From Thermoplasmata archaeon (GTDB taxonomy: Archaea > Thermoplasmatota > Thermoplasmata > Thermoplasmatales > Thermoplasmataceae), in contig JAJZZM010000024.1 of the NCBI GenBank assembly GCA_021797555.1, positions 618 to 64,617 on the forward strand: DNA of 64,000 nt, written 5' to 3'. How positions within the stretch are numbered: the first letter of the stretch is position 1; each line of letters begins with the position of its first letter. A program made the translations under genes and the position numbers. Shown here in pieces: positions 3,530-57,599 of the stretch. Below the pieces are notes generated by a model. It was not told the origin of the DNA. It saw nothing but the letters and a program-made list of their open reading frames with translations, and did no database searches.

Positions 3530-5034
3530 TGTACTGGGCGGATGCGATTATTGAAAATTTGGTAGGTAAACAGTTGGTATCAACAGGGATATCTCCATCA
3601 GGGCCTATACACGTAGGAAATATGCGAGAAATCTTAACCGGGGATATTTTGTATAAGGCATGCCTTGACAAGAAATTAGAATCCCGGTTTATATATCTAT
3701 GTGATGATATGGACCCATTAAGGAAGGTATATCCATTTTTAAGTGATGAGTATTCAAAATATATCGGTGTTCCATTGAGTTATATACCATCACCGGATGG
3801 CAATGGAAAATATTCAGATTATTTTTTAAAGCCCTTTGTTGATACATTAAGCAAAATCAATGTAAACGTTGAGGTTATAAGCACAACAGGACTATACAAT
3901 AACGGCGTATTATCAAACGCAATAAACATAGCAATAAACAAAAGAAATGAAATAAGGGAAATATTGCATGATGTTGCGGGCTATGATTTAGATGAGAACT
4001 GGTATCCATATGAACCAAGATGCTCAAAATGCAATAAAATAAATTCATCAACAGTTATTAAATATGAAGATCCATATGTATATTATAAATGCAATAACTG
4101 TGGCAATGAGGATAAGGCAGATATAAGAACGGATGACGGTAAAATGCCCTGGCGTGTTGAATGGCCTGCCAAATGGTTTTCATTAGGCGTGACAATAGAG
4201 CCATTCGGCAAGGACCACGCTGCCGCAGGCAGTTCCTATGATACTGGAAAGGTAATTGCTAGAAAAATATATAATATAGAACCTCCAGTGCCATTAATGT
4301 ATGAACGTATTCTCTTAAAGGGATTAGGAGTAATGCATTCATCCACAGGGGTATCTATATCTGCTGAAGAGGTAACAAAATTTGCCCCACCTGAAATATT
4401 AAGATTCTTAATAGCAAAAAATGACCCATCAAGGCATATAGATTTTGATCCGGGCCTTGGTTTATTACATCTGATAGATGATTATGAAAAAATTGAAAAT
4501 GCATATTTTGGATTAGATAAGCCAAATAATGAAAATTATAAAAGAATATACGAAATGTCAAGGATAAAAATAATAGAAGCACCGGAAAAAATAAATTTCA
4601 GGCATATTGTTACTCTGGTTCAGATCTATCATGATGATGCATCACTTTTAGAGGCATTAAAAAGAAGTGGTTATAATAAAAATGAAATAGATGATTATTT
4701 AAATAATGAAATAAATATTGCAAAATACTGGTTAAATAAATATGCACCGGAGGATATTAAATTTTCATTAACCGATAAAAAAATATTATTAACCGATAAT
4801 GAAAAATCAATACTAATGGAATTCCTTGAAAAAATAGAAAATACAAACTGGGATTCCGGGGATATACACAATACCATATATAATATAATAGGTGAAAAGA
4901 AAATATCACCAAAAGATGGATTTTCCGTATTTTATAAGGTATTTATAGATAAAACAAAAGGTCCTCGATTAGGTTATTTCCTGTCAAGTATGGATAAAAA
5001 TTACGTTATAGACAGGATAAAAAGTTTATTATAA
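3529..5034 (+). CDS. lysS: Lysyl-tRNA synthetase, class I
   Basis: This 501-residue class I LysRS charges tRNA-Lys. The HIGH-type motif appears as PIHVGN at about residues 25-30, preceded by STGISPSG. The KMSKS-type loop is MHSSTGVSIS at about 269-278. A zinc site CSKC...CNNC lies at about 165-194. The class I form is typical of Euryarchaeota, whereas most bacteria and eukaryotes use the unrelated class II enzyme. The start codon shares one base with the stop of the upstream regulator gene. Length and motif spacing are normal. Confidence 0.95.
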   Translation: MYWADAIIENLVGKQLVSTGISPSGPIHVGNMREILTGDILYKACLDKKLESRFIYLCDDMDPLRKVYPFLSDEYSKYIGVPLSYIPSPDGNGKYSDYFLKPFVDTLSKINVNVEVISTTGLYNNGVLSNAINIAINKRNEIREILHDVAGYDLDENWYPYEPRCSKCNKINSSTVIKYEDPYVYYKCNNCGNEDKADIRTDDGKMPWRVEWPAKWFSLGVTIEPFGKDHAAAGSSYDTGKVIARKIYNIEPPVPLMYERILLKGLGVMHSSTGVSISAEEVTKFAPPEILRFLIAKNDPSRHIDFDPGLGLLHLIDDYEKIENAYFGLDKPNNENYKRIYEMSRIKIIEAPEKINFRHIVTLVQIYHDDASLLEALKRSGYNKNEIDDYLNNEINIAKYWLNKYAPEDIKFSLTDKKILLTDNEKSILMEFLEKIENTNWDSGDIHNTIYNIIGEKKISPKDGFSVFYKVFIDKTKGPRLGYFLSSMDKNYVIDRIKSLL

Positions 5035-50668: not shown

Positions 50669-51607
50669 TTATACATATTTTAAAGGACATTTTAACTCAC
50701 CAATATTATTAGAAAAATTACCTCTTATCCAGTATTTTAATTTATCTTTATCTATTATTATGGTACCGTCACTGTTAATTTTTCCTATTATATTTTTATC
50801 GTCATATAATGCAACCGTGCATTTTCCTATATAACCATTTGCTCTTATTAGATATTGTGACATTGATGCTGCATAGCACATTTCAATATTATTTATTTTA
50901 TAAATATGTAGGCCAGATTTTTTTATCCTATCCCTTAATTTTTTTAGTAAATAATTAATTTCATTTTGATTATCTATAACTGGTAATTTTTTATCATTGG
51001 TGCCACCAAGTCTGGATAGTTCACGAATAAATATTTTAAATCTATTATCATTACCTATATCTAAAGATAATCTATCTATAAAATTATATATACTCTGATA
51101 ATTATTTTTATTAAGATGTAACCTTATGACAATATCTGAATTTATGTTGCTTTTATGTAAATTTAAAATATTATTATAAATAATATCAAAAGTATCTGTT
51201 TTTTCTCTTGTTATTCTAAATTTATTATGATTATCTTTATCTCCATCAAATGATATTTGAAACCATCTAACATAAAGTTCATATAATTCCTTAAATTTTT
51301 TTATTGTTAATAAAGAACCGTTGGTTGTCATAGAAGATGTTAATTTAAAATTATATCTTATTGAGAGATATTTTGAATATTCCATTATATCTTTAATAAC
51401 ATCATACGCTAACATTGGCTCTCCGCCAAACCAGTTTATCTCTAAATTTTTTAATGTTTTTGACCTTGCCAGTATTAAATTTTTTATTCCCTCTATAACC
51501 TTATCATCCATTTTTTTAATTTTAAAATTTTCATAGCAATATACACATCTAAAATTACATTCTTCAGTAGGTAATATATCTAATCTTAAATTTCTGTTGT
51601 ATATCAT
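50669..51607 (-). CDS. Radical SAM peptide maturase with short SPASM/Twitch-like tail
   Basis: From the ATG at 51607 the protein has about 312 residues; a TTG at 51637 would add ten residues and overlap the peptide gene. The radical SAM cluster motif is CNFRCVYCY (Cys 17, 21, 24), followed by NWFGGEPMLAYDV. The C-terminus has CYAASMSQYLIRANGYIGKC, then TVALYDDKNIIGKINSDGT, and ends ELKCPLKYV. This matches the start of SPASM domains in thioether-forming maturases. It stops at the first Cys of the usual final Cys cluster, so one auxiliary cluster may be missing. It lies 20 bases downstream of a Cys-rich 40-residue peptide gene, its probable substrate. Confidence 0.85.
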   Translation of the reverse strand: MIYNRNLRLDILPTEECNFRCVYCYENFKIKKMDDKVIEGIKNLILARSKTLKNLEINWFGGEPMLAYDVIKDIMEYSKYLSIRYNFKLTSSMTTNGSLLTIKKFKELYELYVRWFQISFDGDKDNHNKFRITREKTDTFDIIYNNILNLHKSNINSDIVIRLHLNKNNYQSIYNFIDRLSLDIGNDNRFKIFIRELSRLGGTNDKKLPVIDNQNEINYLLKKLRDRIKKSGLHIYKINNIEMCYAASMSQYLIRANGYIGKCTVALYDDKNIIGKINSDGTIIIDKDKLKYWIRGNFSNNIGELKCPLKYV

Positions 51608-51627
51608 AATATCATTAAACTGGAAAT

Positions 51628-51750
51628 TTACATGCAACTTATATTAATACAACCACATCCACCCAGCATTTTCATTATTTTATGGCCCTCATCTATTTCA
51701 TTTATAGTTTTTATAACTCCATAATTATCTATTTCAATATTATCTATCAT
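51628..51750 (-). CDS. Candidate RiPP precursor peptide 1 (40 aa)
   Basis: This unannotated 40-codon gene begins MIDNIEIDNYGVIKTINEID and ends with a Cys-rich tail GGCGCINISCM. The acidic N-terminal part looks like a leader, and the last ~11 residues, with three Cys, look like a core. The stop is 20 bases from the maturase ATG. The leader start is almost identical to that of the peptide gene at 53102, and both lie beside an MFS gene in the same divergent arrangement. The Cys could form thioether bonds made by the radical SAM enzyme. Cleavage after the GG at residues 30-31 is possible. Confidence 0.75.
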   Translation of the reverse strand: MIDNIEIDNYGVIKTINEIDEGHKIMKMLGGCGCINISCM

Positions 51751-51796
51751 ATTAAACTTAAGGAAATATATATATATAATTTTCTATTATGGTCCG
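51751..51796. promoter_or_regulatory. Shared divergent promoter, cassette 1
   Basis: The 46-base space between the peptide and transporter ATGs holds TTAAACTTAAGG followed by an alternating AT tract usable as a TATA box in both directions. AAGGAAA before the tract fits a BRE for the transporter gene. The same block, with a slightly longer AT tract, recurs at 53234-53280. Confidence 0.65.
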
Positions 51797-52987
51797 ATGT
51801 TGAATAACTATAAAATTATGTATTTTTATTCATATATATCAAACCTAATGGCCTCTCCATTGGATATAATATTTCTATGGATAATTATAATAAAAACAGA
51901 TTCAATACTGTTTGCTGGCTTGGGTTTAACTTTTTTATTTTTACCAACGTCATTATCATTTTTTACTGGCTATTTAACAGATAATATAAAAAATAAAAAA
52001 ACATTATTAATATTTATAAATTTTTTAAGAATTCTAACTGCAATATTTATTATATTTGATCTTATAAATTTTAAATTTGTGCATTTTATTGTACTCCTAA
52101 TTTTATTTTTAATATTTGGTTTTTTTAATACATTTACAAATAATATTTTTCGGTCAATTGAAAAGTATACTGTTGATGAAAACAAATTAAATAAATATTT
52201 TAAAATTATTCATATATTATATTTTGCTGGGTCTATATCAGGGCTATTAATCTCTGGTATTCTTTTGTCTGTTAATTACAATTTTGCAATTATATTTATA
52301 ATTATTGCTTTATTTGTTCAAATATTATTAATAAAATTAATTGATACAAAAAACATAGATTTTAATAAAAACAAACAATACAAATCAAAAACAAACGATT
52401 TAATTAATTCTATTTTATATATTAAAAATCATAAGTTGCTTCTGGATATTATAATAATAGGAGTAATTTCTGATTTTATTGCATCCATGCTTGAACCGGT
52501 ATTAACGTATATAACACATGATATATTAAAAATAAATGCATTTTTCCTAACCTTATTTGCTGTTTTTATTGTTTTAGGCTCAATAACAGGAACATTATTT
52601 GCAGGAAAAATTAAGGGCAAGGTGTATAAATATTATTTAATCATAATGTTTTTGCTTCCAGTATTTTATTATTTTATTTATATTGTTTCAGATAATTTAT
52701 ATTTCATTTTTATTGTTCTTTTTATTTTAGGATTATTATCATCATTTTTGGCCTTATTTCATAGTATACTGTACTTTAAAAATATAGATAGGGAAAATTC
52801 AGGTAAAATATATGGATTTAACAGTTCGCTTAATGGAATTGTGCAGCCTTTTTCTGGCGTAATAATAGGATTTATAATATCATTTTATTTATTAAAAATA
52901 GGCATAGACTTTATGGTTATATTATTATTTATAAATTTCTTTATTTTATTATTTATTTTAAAAGATATGAAAAATGCATCCATATAA
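51797..52987 (+). CDS. MFS transporter, candidate RiPP exporter 1
   Basis: This 396-residue protein is very hydrophobic, with about 12 helices in two halves. The first loop reads GYLTDNIKNKK and the end has GIVQPFSGVIIGFIISFYLL. It resembles drug-efflux-type MFS proteins. It is divergent from precursor 1 across a 46-base promoter. It is clearly paralogous to the protein at 53281 (same MLNNYK start, LFHSIL-FK-ID and QPFSGVIIGFI segments). Export of the modified peptide, or self-resistance to it, is inferred from position. Confidence 0.8.
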   Translation: MLNNYKIMYFYSYISNLMASPLDIIFLWIIIIKTDSILFAGLGLTFLFLPTSLSFFTGYLTDNIKNKKTLLIFINFLRILTAIFIIFDLINFKFVHFIVLLILFLIFGFFNTFTNNIFRSIEKYTVDENKLNKYFKIIHILYFAGSISGLLISGILLSVNYNFAIIFIIIALFVQILLIKLIDTKNIDFNKNKQYKSKTNDLINSILYIKNHKLLLDIIIIGVISDFIASMLEPVLTYITHDILKINAFFLTLFAVFIVLGSITGTLFAGKIKGKVYKYYLIIMFLLPVFYYFIYIVSDNLYFIFIVLFILGLLSSFLALFHSILYFKNIDRENSGKIYGFNSSLNGIVQPFSGVIIGFIISFYLLKIGIDFMVILLFINFFILLFILKDMKNASI

Positions 52988-53101
52988 ATAATTATTATTC
53001 ATATTTTTATTATAATAGACATAAAGTAATAAAATATTATAATAATAATTTTATGCGATTATAAATTTATACTAAAAAATTATAATTAAAAATTTATAAA
53101 C

Positions 53102-53233
53102 TTAGCATGGGACAAGAAGCTCTGGACCACAGCCTAAATTTGCCTCTCTTGGTTTTATATGTTCATCTGGATTAACAAAACCTTCTGGCACAGTTATTAT
53201 TCCATAATTATCTATTTCAATATTCTCTATCAT
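53102..53233 (-). CDS. Candidate RiPP precursor peptide 2 (43 aa)
   Basis: This 43-codon gene begins MIENIEIDNYGIITVPEGFV and ends ANLGCGPELLVPC. Its first 13 residues match precursor 1 at all but two positions, whereas the rest differs, including a core-like tail with two Cys separated by seven residues. A longer frame reaches 53329, but the start at 53233 matches precursor 1 exactly and avoids overlap with the transporter. No second maturase is nearby, so the enzyme at 50669 may modify both peptides. Confidence 0.75.
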   Translation of the reverse strand: MIENIEIDNYGIITVPEGFVNPDEHIKPREANLGCGPELLVPC

Positions 53234-53280
53234 ATTAAACTTAAGGAAATATATATATATATATTTTCTATCATGGTTCG
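53234..53280. promoter_or_regulatory. Shared divergent promoter, cassette 2
   Basis: This 47-base spacer is nearly identical to 51751-51796: TTAAACTTAAGG, an AT tract, TTTTCTAT, then an ATGGT-CGATGTTGAA-AAC-type transporter start. The AT tract is longer here. The conservation continues into the first codons of both genes, which indicates recent cassette duplication. Confidence 0.65.
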
Positions 53281-54477
53281 ATGTTGAACAACTATAAAAA
53301 GATATATTTAAGTATATTGGCCTCGTCACTTTTATATGGCAAGGACCTTATATTTATATGGATAATATTAGAAAAAACAGACTCAATACTGTTAGCAGGA
53401 ATTGCACTTACAATATTTTATATACCCTCATTTTTATCTGTTATTATTGGTCCTATTGTAGATAGTTTTAAAAATAAAAAAAATATTTTAATAATTTCAA
53501 ATACAATGCATTTTATAATAATATTACTTATAATTATAATACTGTTAAAATCAGGATTTATAATTTATATAATCTTTTTATTTTTATTATTCTTATACAG
53601 CTTTGTAACAAATTTTTCTAATTTGAGTTTTATGTCCCTTCAAAAACATATAGTTAATAGCACTGATTCAAAAAAATACTTTAAAAATTTGCATAGTGTT
53701 TATATGCTATCATCAATTTTTGGATTATTAATTACAGGATTATTATTAACATTAAATTATAACTTTGCATTAATATTTATGGCATCTATTCTTATAATAT
53801 CGACTGTTATTTCATCATTAATTGATATTAAAAATATCAACTTTGAATCAAAAAAACTTGATTTCCATGGATTGAGAAGCATAAGGTACGCATTTAATTA
53901 TCTAAAAAATAATAGTGTGCTTTTAGATTTACAGGTGCTTTCAATTATAAACGGCCTTGGTGTTGCAATGATTGTTCCTGCAGTGGCATATATTTCATAT
54001 AATATACTAAATATATCTGCATTTTTATTGACAACATTTTTTATTGCAGGTTTAATAGGTTCATTCATAGGAACTTTAATTTCATCTAAAATTCATACTA
54101 ATGTAAAAGGAAGAATATACAAATATTATTTAATAATAGCATTTATCTTCCCGTTTGCATATTATAATATATATTTATTCTATAATTATTTATATATAAT
54201 TTACATTATTTTCTTCATAACCGGTTTAATGGAATCTATAATATCATTATTTCATAGCATCTTGAATTTTAAATATATAGATAAAAATATATCAGCAAGT
54301 GTCTATGGATTAAAGCAGACGCTCAATGGTATAACACAGCCTTTTTCTGGTGTAATAATTGGATTTATTATAACATTTTATTTATTAAAATCAGCATTTT
54401 TATTTATATTTATAATATTCTTTACTGATTTTATTATTTTATTATTTTTAAAGAGTATAAAAAATGCGGAAATTTAA
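53281..54477 (+). CDS. MFS transporter, candidate RiPP exporter 2
   Basis: This 398-residue, ~12-helix paralogue of the transporter at 51797 starts MLNNYKKIYLSILASSLLYG and has the loop GPIVDSFKNKKN. Its C-terminal ~75 codons and 3' flank recur as a broken copy at 57290-57599. It is divergent from precursor 2, mirroring cassette 1. Sequence divergence from exporter 1 is much greater than in the promoter/leader block, which fits matching each transporter to a different peptide. Substrate is inferred. Confidence 0.8.
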   Translation: MLNNYKKIYLSILASSLLYGKDLIFIWIILEKTDSILLAGIALTIFYIPSFLSVIIGPIVDSFKNKKNILIISNTMHFIIILLIIIILLKSGFIIYIIFLFLLFLYSFVTNFSNLSFMSLQKHIVNSTDSKKYFKNLHSVYMLSSIFGLLITGLLLTLNYNFALIFMASILIISTVISSLIDIKNINFESKKLDFHGLRSIRYAFNYLKNNSVLLDLQVLSIINGLGVAMIVPAVAYISYNILNISAFLLTTFFIAGLIGSFIGTLISSKIHTNVKGRIYKYYLIIAFIFPFAYYNIYLFYNYLYIIYIIFFITGLMESIISLFHSILNFKYIDKNISASVYGLKQTLNGITQPFSGVIIGFIITFYLLKSAFLFIFIIFFTDFIILLFLKSIKNAEI

Positions 54478-54559
54478 TTTATATAATAAATTTTTTAATT
54501 AAGCAAAAATTATATACCAACAATAAAAACATAGGCTATAAAATATATTATAAAAAATA
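54243..54559 (+). repeat. Direct repeat A1: 3' end and flank of exporter 2
   Basis: About 310 bases covering the last part of the exporter gene and ~80 bases beyond it recur at 57290-57599. There is a short internal deletion near the stop codon and a few substitutions. The intervening 2.7 kb holds transposase relics and an ATPase gene. Confidence 0.93.
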
Positions 54560-55148: not shown

Positions 55149-56594
55149 ATGGAGATATTTTTCGATAGGGATAACGAATTAAAAAAGCTAATAACAGATA
55201 TTGAAAAACATAGGTCATTGATAGTATTATATGGTAACAGGAGAGTAGGAAAAACTGAACTTATAAAGAAAACAATAAATAAAATAGGTGGCATATATTT
55301 ATATGTAGATAACACAAAAAGTTCAAATTTATTGTTACAGGAATTTTCCGATACAATCAGAAGATATTTCAACACATCACTTTTTAATCCGCCTGACTGG
55401 GATTTGTTTATTAAAGGTTTATTTGAACTTTCAAGAAACAGACAAACAGTGGTTTATTTTGATGAATTTCAGAGATTTGAAGACATCAACAGATCTGTAT
55501 TTACGGCACTCCAAAAGAACGTTGATTTATACATCGACACATCAAGACTGTCAATTGTCTGTTCAGGCTCCTCAGTTGGACTAATAAAGAAAATATTTAT
55601 GGACAGAAATTTGCCCTTATACAAGAGAGCAACCTCTATAATGCATTTAAAAAATTTTGATTTTGTAACATCCTATAAATATTTGAAAATCAGTATCTAT
55701 GATGCAATCAAGGTATATTCAATATTCGGTGGTTCTCCACAATTTTACAAGTATTTTCGTTTGAACAGCATAAAAAACGTAGAGGGGATGATAAAGAGTA
55801 TTTTTTTGAGCAGTAACAGCATATACGTGTTTGAGCCCAGAGACTTCATTACTGAAGAATTCGGTAGGAGGTCACAAACATACTTCTCCATACTTTACTC
55901 TATTTCAAGCGGAAACACTAAAGTATCAGATATAGCAAATATTACGGATGTAAAAGCCACCTCAATGCAGCCTTATCTATTTGAAATGAAAGATATATTG
56001 AATTTGATAACATATGAACTACCTGTAACACATAAAAATAATAAAATTGATAAAAAAGGAATCTATAAACTAACCGATAATTATATGGAATTCTGGTTCA
56101 GCCAGTTTTATCCAAATATAAATCAATTTGAGCTCGGTAATTATAGTGGAGTAGTTAATTCATTAATACAGTCTGTCGATATGATAGTCCCGCACAAATT
56201 TGAAGAGATATGCAAAGAATTAATGATCTATATGAACAATGAAAAAGCGGATATTTTGCCTTTTAATATACAAAAAATTGGAAAATGGTGGGGCAGAAAC
56301 ACAAATAATAATCGTGATAGAGATCAGGAAGAAATAGATATTATCGCCTTGAATGAGGAGAAAAAGGCTATAATGTTTGGCGAATGCAAATGGACACACA
56401 GGCCTGTATGCGTTTCTGTGTATGAAGATTTAAAGAGAAAAGCTATGAGTGTAGAGTGGAATAATAAGGATAGAAATGATTATTTTATATTATTCAGCAA
56501 ATCCGGTTTTACAGATAAAATGAGAGACATTGCAGAAAAAGATAATGTATTATTATTCGATCTGGATAAAATTGAAGGTATACTTAAAAAATGA
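55149..56594 (+). CDS. Archaeal AAA ATPase with DUF234 domain
   Basis: In this 481-residue protein, residues 1-200 form a P-loop ATPase (Walker A YGNRRVGKTE at about 28-37, Walker B VVYFDEFQRF at about 99-108). A winged-helix segment follows (GNTKVSDIANITDVKATSMQ), then a C-terminal DUF234 nuclease-like domain with RDQEEIDIIAL and MFGECKWTHRP, a PD-(D/E)xK-like Asp/Glu-x-Lys pattern. Such ATPases are numerous in archaeal variable regions; their role is unknown. Its base composition is less AT-rich than the peptide genes on either side, and it is bracketed by transposase relics, supporting transfer. Confidence 0.85.
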   Translation: MEIFFDRDNELKKLITDIEKHRSLIVLYGNRRVGKTELIKKTINKIGGIYLYVDNTKSSNLLLQEFSDTIRRYFNTSLFNPPDWDLFIKGLFELSRNRQTVVYFDEFQRFEDINRSVFTALQKNVDLYIDTSRLSIVCSGSSVGLIKKIFMDRNLPLYKRATSIMHLKNFDFVTSYKYLKISIYDAIKVYSIFGGSPQFYKYFRLNSIKNVEGMIKSIFLSSNSIYVFEPRDFITEEFGRRSQTYFSILYSISSGNTKVSDIANITDVKATSMQPYLFEMKDILNLITYELPVTHKNNKIDKKGIYKLTDNYMEFWFSQFYPNINQFELGNYSGVVNSLIQSVDMIVPHKFEEICKELMIYMNNEKADILPFNIQKIGKWWGRNTNNNRDRDQEEIDIIALNEEKKAIMFGECKWTHRPVCVSVYEDLKRKAMSVEWNNKDRNDYFILFSKSGFTDKMRDIAEKDNVLLFDLDKIEGILKK

Positions 56595-57289: not shown

Positions 57290-57599
57290 ATCATTATTTC
57301 ATAGCATCTTGAATTTTAAATATATAGATAAAAATATATCAGCAAGTGTCTATGGATTAAAGCAGACGCTCAATGGTATAACACAGCCTTTTTCTGGTGT
57401 AATAATTGGATTTATTATAACATTTTATTTATTAAAATCAGCATTTTTATTTATATTTATAATATTCTTTATGGATTTTATTATTTTTAAGAGGTATAAA
57501 AAATGCGGAAATTTAATTTATATAATAAATTTTTTAATTAAGCAAAAATTATATGGCTAACAATAAAAACATAGGCTATAAAATATATTATAAAAAATA
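57290..57599 (+). pseudogene. Broken copy of exporter 2 C-terminus (direct repeat A2)
   Basis: The segment repeats 54243-54559, encoding FHSILNFKYIDKNISASVYG through QPFSGVIIGFIITFYLL. It has no start region or first ten helices. A short deletion before the stop shifts the frame, so the end differs from FLKSIKNAEI. It cannot be a transporter alone. The last ~60 bases of the repeat also encode the C-terminus of the membrane protein read from the opposite strand. Confidence 0.9.

Follow-up and report, generated by a model that had tools for sequence, protein, structure and literature searches.

A candidate ranthipeptide-like locus with two NxxC precursor peptides in a Thermoplasmata archaeon, and its relatives in archaea, on bacterial plasmids and on viral contigs

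Radical-SAM RiPPs of archaea have been predicted in large numbers. A 2025 survey of archaea counted ranthipeptide and sactipeptide clusters by antiSMASH and characterised lanthipeptides alone, and the experimentally validated archaeal RiPPs that it mentions are likewise only lanthipeptides (PMC12144867). Radical-SAM genes in the genomic islands of Ferroplasma have been read as calditol biosynthesis genes, and a modified peptide is not described in the available part of that survey (PMC12350378). In bacteria, the NxxC RaS-RiPPs of streptococci, represented by NxxcA and NxxcB of Streptococcus orisratti, combine a small precursor with an adjoining radical-SAM maturase; NxxcB forms a beta-thioether between Cys23 and Asn20 of NxxcA, that is, within the NxxC motif of the core (PMC8326336; PMC13361665). 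Another thioether maturase of ranthipeptides, CteB (PDB 5wgg, 5why), has about 450 aa with an RRE and a full SPASM domain, and acts in the SCIFF system, where the precursor carries six Cys in 45 residues. In a search largely confined to freely accessible literature, we found no paper describing the maturase family considered below.

The locus studied here lies in a stretch of 64,000 nucleotides (the window) from a thermoacidophilic Thermoplasmata archaeon, for which an archaeal SSU rRNA was identified, and consists of the following features:

50669..51607, minus strand: radical-SAM peptide maturase, 312 aa from ATG (PF04055, E=1.4e-18)
51628..51750, minus strand: PepA precursor, 40 aa; leader IEIDNYGVI, core ...GGCGCINISCM, NxxC present as NISC
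51711..51825: cassette-duplication repeat A (leader start, putative promoter, MFS start), 91% DNA identity to repeat B
51751..51796: divergent intergenic region A, 46 bp, between the start codons of PepA and MFS1
51797..52987, plus strand: MFS1 transporter, 396 aa (PF07690, E=5.3e-21), divergent from PepA
53102..53233, minus strand: PepB precursor, 43 aa; leader IEIDNYGII, core ...NLGCGPELLVPC, NxxC present as NLGC
53194..53309: cassette-duplication repeat B, counterpart of 51711-51825
53234..53280: divergent intergenic region B, 47 bp, a copy of 51751-51796
53281..54477, plus strand: MFS2 transporter, 398 aa, 45% identical to MFS1, divergent from PepB

The initial annotation described this arrangement accurately. 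The maturase with its CNFRCVYCY motif, the 40-codon PepA ending in GGCGCINISCM, the 20-base gap between the PepA stop and the maturase ATG and the divergent MFS gene were recovered exactly, down to their coordinates, and so were the 43-codon PepB, which ends in GCGPELLVPC with a C-terminal Cys, and the paralogous MFS gene diverging from it. The locus resembles the NxxC RaS-RiPPs in its NxxC core, small precursor and adjoining radical-SAM maturase. Unlike the streptococcal systems, which are tied to Rgg/SHP quorum sensing, the window locus is archaeal and MFS-linked, has a different leader, and has no Rgg/SHP-type regulatory genes adjacent to it.

The longest maturase ORF opens with a TTG at 51637; since relatives begin at about the place of the ATG at 51607, the latter is most likely the start. 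The predicted enzyme contains six Cys in all, three in CX3CX2C and three in CX18CX43C; its N-terminus lies 16 residues ahead of CX3CX2C and its C-terminus 5 residues past the third auxiliary Cys. The auxiliary part is a shortened twitch/SPASM-like domain that contains three Cys. The CX18CX43C spacing is identical across all truncated family members with complete sequence. Spacing of this type also occurs inside full SPASM domains, e.g., in the enzyme of a second system described below, and therefore shows at which point the domain is cut off and does not define a new one. The member from Deinococcus actinosclerus retains an N-terminal extension and the full Cys set, which suggests that the others lost both ends. 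The three auxiliary Cys can hold one cluster and leave a free site, at which the substrate thiolate could be bound.

The AlphaFold model of the maturase was built from a five-row alignment (pLDDT 81), after a single-sequence model with pLDDT 46 had been discarded. Its top PDB fold match was CteB (5wgg, E=7.9e-14), also the closest solved structure by sequence profile search (E=2.1e-21). However, the window enzyme is far shorter than CteB, lacks the RRE and has only the three auxiliary Cys, and the archaeal precursors carry two or three Cys each, not six as in SCIFF. Neither the window enzyme nor any of four bacterial homologues scored above the cut-off of an NCBIfam maturase model. The best model for the window enzyme, and also for several homologues, was TIGR04463 (133.4 bits against a cut-off of 525), although an annotated plasmid member of that family, from Methylomagnum, is only 24% identical and adjoins CefA; the SCIFF maturase model TIGR03974 gave 73 bits against 425. 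The pairing that defines ranthipeptide loci, a radical-SAM maturase with an auxiliary Fe-S domain next to a Cys-containing precursor, is present, while the N-terminal RRE and the full seven-Cys SPASM domain of canonical SPASM RiPP maturases are not. Therefore, of the classic ranthipeptide/sactipeptide layout proposed earlier, the adjacency of precursor, maturase and exporter stands, and the word classic does not: besides the missing RRE and the truncated SPASM, the window locus contains no protease or peptidase gene and no ABC exporter.

To place the locus, we searched 80 related genomes for the maturase, and then an even draw of 400 genomes of the class. Among the 80, close homologues were found in two, at five loci with 47-54% identity: G002, of the same genus, has copies on contigs C10 and C56 (50 and 47%), and G036, of another genus of the same family, has copies on C59, C72 and C56 (51-54%). 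The 400-genome draw yielded the family in the same three genomes only (the window genome, G002 and G036), a fourth genome counted there carrying only the second system. Directly upstream of the maturase, all five related loci have an ORF of 34-37 aa, encoding MELDEHGRIFGVDEEIGEMLAGDNEKCTIRNYAC (for which an alternative start seven codons earlier is possible), MEIDEYGRTFGVDEEIGEFFDDVNGNCPVVNFIC, MEFDEFGRIYGYEDLYDDMEMDINVGCSVLNFKVFC, MEIDDYGRIYGIDEEIDLMDALGNFICKVINAGAC and MNVDKYGIVTMEQETIINGSMNELLEAQIICIENGHC. With the window included, an upstream peptide and an adjoining MFS gene accompany the maturase at six of six archaeal loci, the MFS gene being downstream in the five relatives, and so the trio of precursor, maturase and exporter, on which the radical-SAM RiPP assignment was originally based, recurs in related archaea. 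In G002 C56 the maturase (L013:1471-2454) is broken by one in-frame TAG, with precursor and MFS intact.

In the alignment of the seven archaeal peptides, D, G and two Cys near the C-terminus are invariant, and the common leader motif is hD-x-x-G. The paralogous precursors of G036 C59 and C56 differ by 8 synonymous-only versus 3 nonsynonymous codon changes in the first 17 codons, and by 2 versus 12 in the remaining ones; the leader thus appears constrained and the core free, as is expected of a RiPP precursor. In the window, the leader motif together with a near-end NxxC occurs in exactly two of 447 ORFs of 25-110 aa, PepA and PepB, and the same filter passed none of 5,630 ORFs in the control loci (679 kb). 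When a leader matrix was trained on sequences from outside the window, it ranked the PepB leader first of ∼128,000 six-frame 10-mers in the window, with PepA outside the top 12. When the five archaeal peptides of other genomes were made into a profile and run against the genome of the window, both window peptides were missed at E<=10, and therefore a short-peptide HMM is no independent detector here.

The leaders of PepA and PepB, whose starts were noted earlier as nearly identical, do match there at 11 of 13 residues, mostly owing to recent duplication: a stretch of ∼116 bp is 91% identical at the DNA level, and hence cassettes A and B are products of a duplication, with the maturase in only one of them. 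We have rejected the A/B leader similarity alone as proof of function, as it sits within this duplication. In the middle of 51751-51796, at about 22-25 bp from either start codon, lies a TATA-like AT repeat, and this region is probably a bidirectional promoter. MFS1 is presumed to be the peptide exporter, a plausible role. Between loci, and leaving close pairs aside, the MFS genes share only 21-45%, and that of G002 C56 gave no match among those of other loci, so the MFS genes may be exchangeable neighbours.

Neighbours of the maturase and the precursors include a CTP synthase gene, a DUF234 ATPase gene and the two MFS genes. A segment comprising the 3′ end of MFS2 and downstream DNA (54243-54559) is repeated about 3 kb away at 57290-57599 with 95.6% identity, and the two copies flank transposase-like remnants and the DUF234 ATPase gene (55149-56594), a sign of rearrangement at the locus.

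The family is not confined to Thermoplasmata, and the initial view of a new Thermoplasmata system is not supported. A tblastn search of plasmids yielded ten records, clearly separated in score from the next: Acetobacter, Sinorhizobium, four Bradyrhizobium, two Streptomyces and two Deinococcus. A viral scan found one prophage-like locus, and further viral loci once the family alignment was used. The maturase homologues on bacterial plasmids and viral contigs are 34-44% identical. Phage records gave only distant matches, and a scan of genome contigs with the single maturase protein gave only a distant Lachnospiraceae enzyme. On the plasmid of Deinococcus sp. KNUC1210 (L060:1-4885), the family maturase adjoins an LLM-class oxidoreductase gene, and the plasmid also carries lantibiotic dehydratase genes. 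In the tree the family groups together (support 100/98), and the six archaeal rows fall within it beside bacterial ones; monophyly of the archaeal rows is modestly supported (82/64). The maturase and MFS genes have a GC content of 20-23%, versus 32-33% in the CTP synthase and polymerase neighbours. Both the tree placement and the low GC fit horizontal transfer, and the archaeal copies are apparently acquired members, although AT-rich composition alone is no proof of acquisition.

Peptides with an hD-x-x-G leader and C-terminal Cys occur near the bacterial and viral maturases, upstream or downstream, with leaders such as ISLDESGKVVI, VELDDAGRIVL and ITVDDNGRVVI. An absence of homologous leaders beside related maturases had been named as grounds for dropping the RiPP idea; in fact, we found such leaders in 7 archaeal, 9 bacterial or prophage and 5 further viral peptides. 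The initial annotation also considered one maturase serving two cores unusual, yet Streptomyces NBC_00122 and the viral contig L102 likewise have two precursors per maturase.

To characterize the cores, we counted residues at each offset around Cys in the first 16 peptides, with no motif chosen beforehand. The commonest was Asn at -3, in 14 of the 16, and NxxC is present in all seven archaeal peptides. This motif, the most informative feature of the locus, had escaped the initial annotation, as had the bacterial and viral relatives and a flavoprotein gene beside one related archaeal locus (see below). The 21 peptides together have 57 cysteines, of which 30 have Asn at -3, where shuffling gives 8.0 on average, and in the five viral precursors, chosen by maturase similarity, leader motif and Cys presence and not by NxxC, the count is 13 of 22 against 3.4, with the qualification that shuffles ignore kinship among peptides, so that the P values are too favourable. 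The cores from viruses, Streptomyces, rhizobia and archaea cannot be aligned as copies of one another. The viral precursor of L103 has five Cys, all in NxxC (NAGC-NGSC-NSGC-NGGC-NAGC), while Deinococcus precursors have NxxxC in place of NxxC. Nearly half of the cysteines have no Asn at -3; in PepA this holds for the first two, and in PepB for the last. On viral contigs, precursors were seen in which an NxxC or NxxxC unit is repeated, in some peptides five times or more (L103:4048-4329, L102:2695-2937 and 3957-4196, L105:4054-4272).

The reading that we favour, with a probability of about 0.66, is a RiPP locus of a so-far unnamed ranthipeptide-like maturase family, in which one maturase forms an NxxC thioether in both PepA and PepB. 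It is very likely that the locus is a real RiPP locus, and equally so that the small peptide is the substrate of the maturase. An Asn-Cys thioether bond is likely, as is the modification of both duplicated precursors by one maturase, since the enzyme is the sole family member in the window genome and neither peptide has lost the leader or NxxC. The maturase would recognise the h-D-x-x-G leader of PepA and, in trans, that of PepB, and the 5′-deoxyadenosyl radical would abstract a side-chain hydrogen from the Asn three residues before Cys. The Cys sulfur, possibly held by the one auxiliary cluster at the site that its three Cys leave free, would then bond to the Asn side-chain carbon, yielding a small thioether ring of the NxxcA type with a mass change of -2 Da. 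A cellular protease would remove the leader, and the MFS neighbours would export the product and protect the producer. As to its role, our guess is a peptide for competition or signalling.

It is highly improbable that no peptide is modified, the small ORFs being leader-like or chance and the enzyme acting on something else. The A/B similarity in the window is partly due to recent duplication; still, such peptides recur next to maturases of the family in archaea, in bacteria and on viral contigs, the leader shows a purifying pattern, and no control ORF passed the combined filter. A rather unlikely alternative is a RiPP made by another radical-SAM reaction (an alpha-carbon sactionine, epimerisation or a C-C bond), with the cysteines acting as metal ligands or in disulfides. 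Maturases differing in chemistry are closely related by sequence, about half of the cysteines lack the Asn at -3, and presence in only three of 400 class genomes suits an accessory function, but Asn and Cys are co-conserved at a fixed spacing and the top structural match is a thioether enzyme. We consider it quite unlikely that the enzyme acts like PapB, the freyrasin maturase, and joins Cys to a residue further along the chain (CX3N, analogous to CX3D), which would place the rings between the first Cys and its following Asn, or between other pairs. Asn at +4 of Cys (CX3N) is found in five of the seven archaeal peptides but is much rarer than Asn at -3 in viral and bacterial precursors. PapB accepts varied spacings, and the acceptors given for it are Asp and Glu (PMC9413430). 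Its model NF047865 is of similar length (330 aa) and describes an enzyme for Cys and an acceptor at fixed spacing; the similarity is detectable (E=2.3e-31), yet the window enzyme scores only 109.3 bits against the curated cut-off of 340, and CX3D is absent from PepA and PepB.

Within the archaeal branch, a flavoprotein of the HFCD type, to which LanD, EpiD and CypD belong, accompanies some of the loci. In G036 C59 the row comprises a peptide ending in NYAC, the maturase, the MFS gene and an intact flavoprotein of 193 aa (PF02441, E=1.8e-29) with the motifs PASANS and PNMNEKMW. The copies are:

L018:2472-3053: intact flavoprotein, G036 C59
L020:5605-5919: N-terminally truncated flavoprotein in the same place, G002 C10
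L012, about 3690-3800: short fragment at the contig end, G036 C72
L098:7939-8523: orphan in G020, which has no such locus; PNMNEKMW reads PNMNEKMR

As in LanD-type systems, the G036 C59 peptide ends in Cys, but CoaBC/CoaC models score this flavoprotein higher than CypD models, and therefore it can be regarded only as a possible modifier of the C-terminal Cys. The window locus has no HFCD gene, and no decarboxylase was found for it, as the only two flavoproteins of the genome (open frames of 186 and 400 aa) lie on the distant contigs C2 and C10. It seems unlikely that the archaeal loci form a RiPP class of their own, combining radical-SAM Asn-Cys crosslinking with HFCD oxidative decarboxylation of the C-terminal Cys to an enethiol, which could close a second ring; the flavoprotein would then have been lost or replaced in the window genome. 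We found no paper on such a combination.

A second RiPP-like system was observed in the window genome and in three others:

L002:1235-2544 (window's own genome, G000 C23), also L015, L005 and L006: peptide of 26-29 aa ending in CRCGYSPSWGN, followed by a radical SAM/SPASM enzyme of 408 aa

Four genomes from two genera (G000, G002, G007, G042) have the same last 11 residues after a variable start, a pattern that suggests a signal or cofactor and not a bacteriocin. The best NCBIfam models for the enzyme, CefB and geopeptide, stay below cut-off, and the gene in the window's own genome has an in-frame TGA. With 30% identity, a different peptide and this stop, it was rejected as a paralogue of the maturase.

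The window locus offers a compact testable system, comprised of one 312-residue enzyme without an RRE, two substrates of ∼40 residues and a stated bond. If confirmed, it would provide a minimal, possibly heat-stable thioether-forming enzyme useful for peptide cyclisation. The archaeal, bacterial-plasmid and viral loci are joined in one so-far unnamed maturase family, and their common precursor grammar, an hD-x-x-G leader with an NxxC core, can be used as a search rule.
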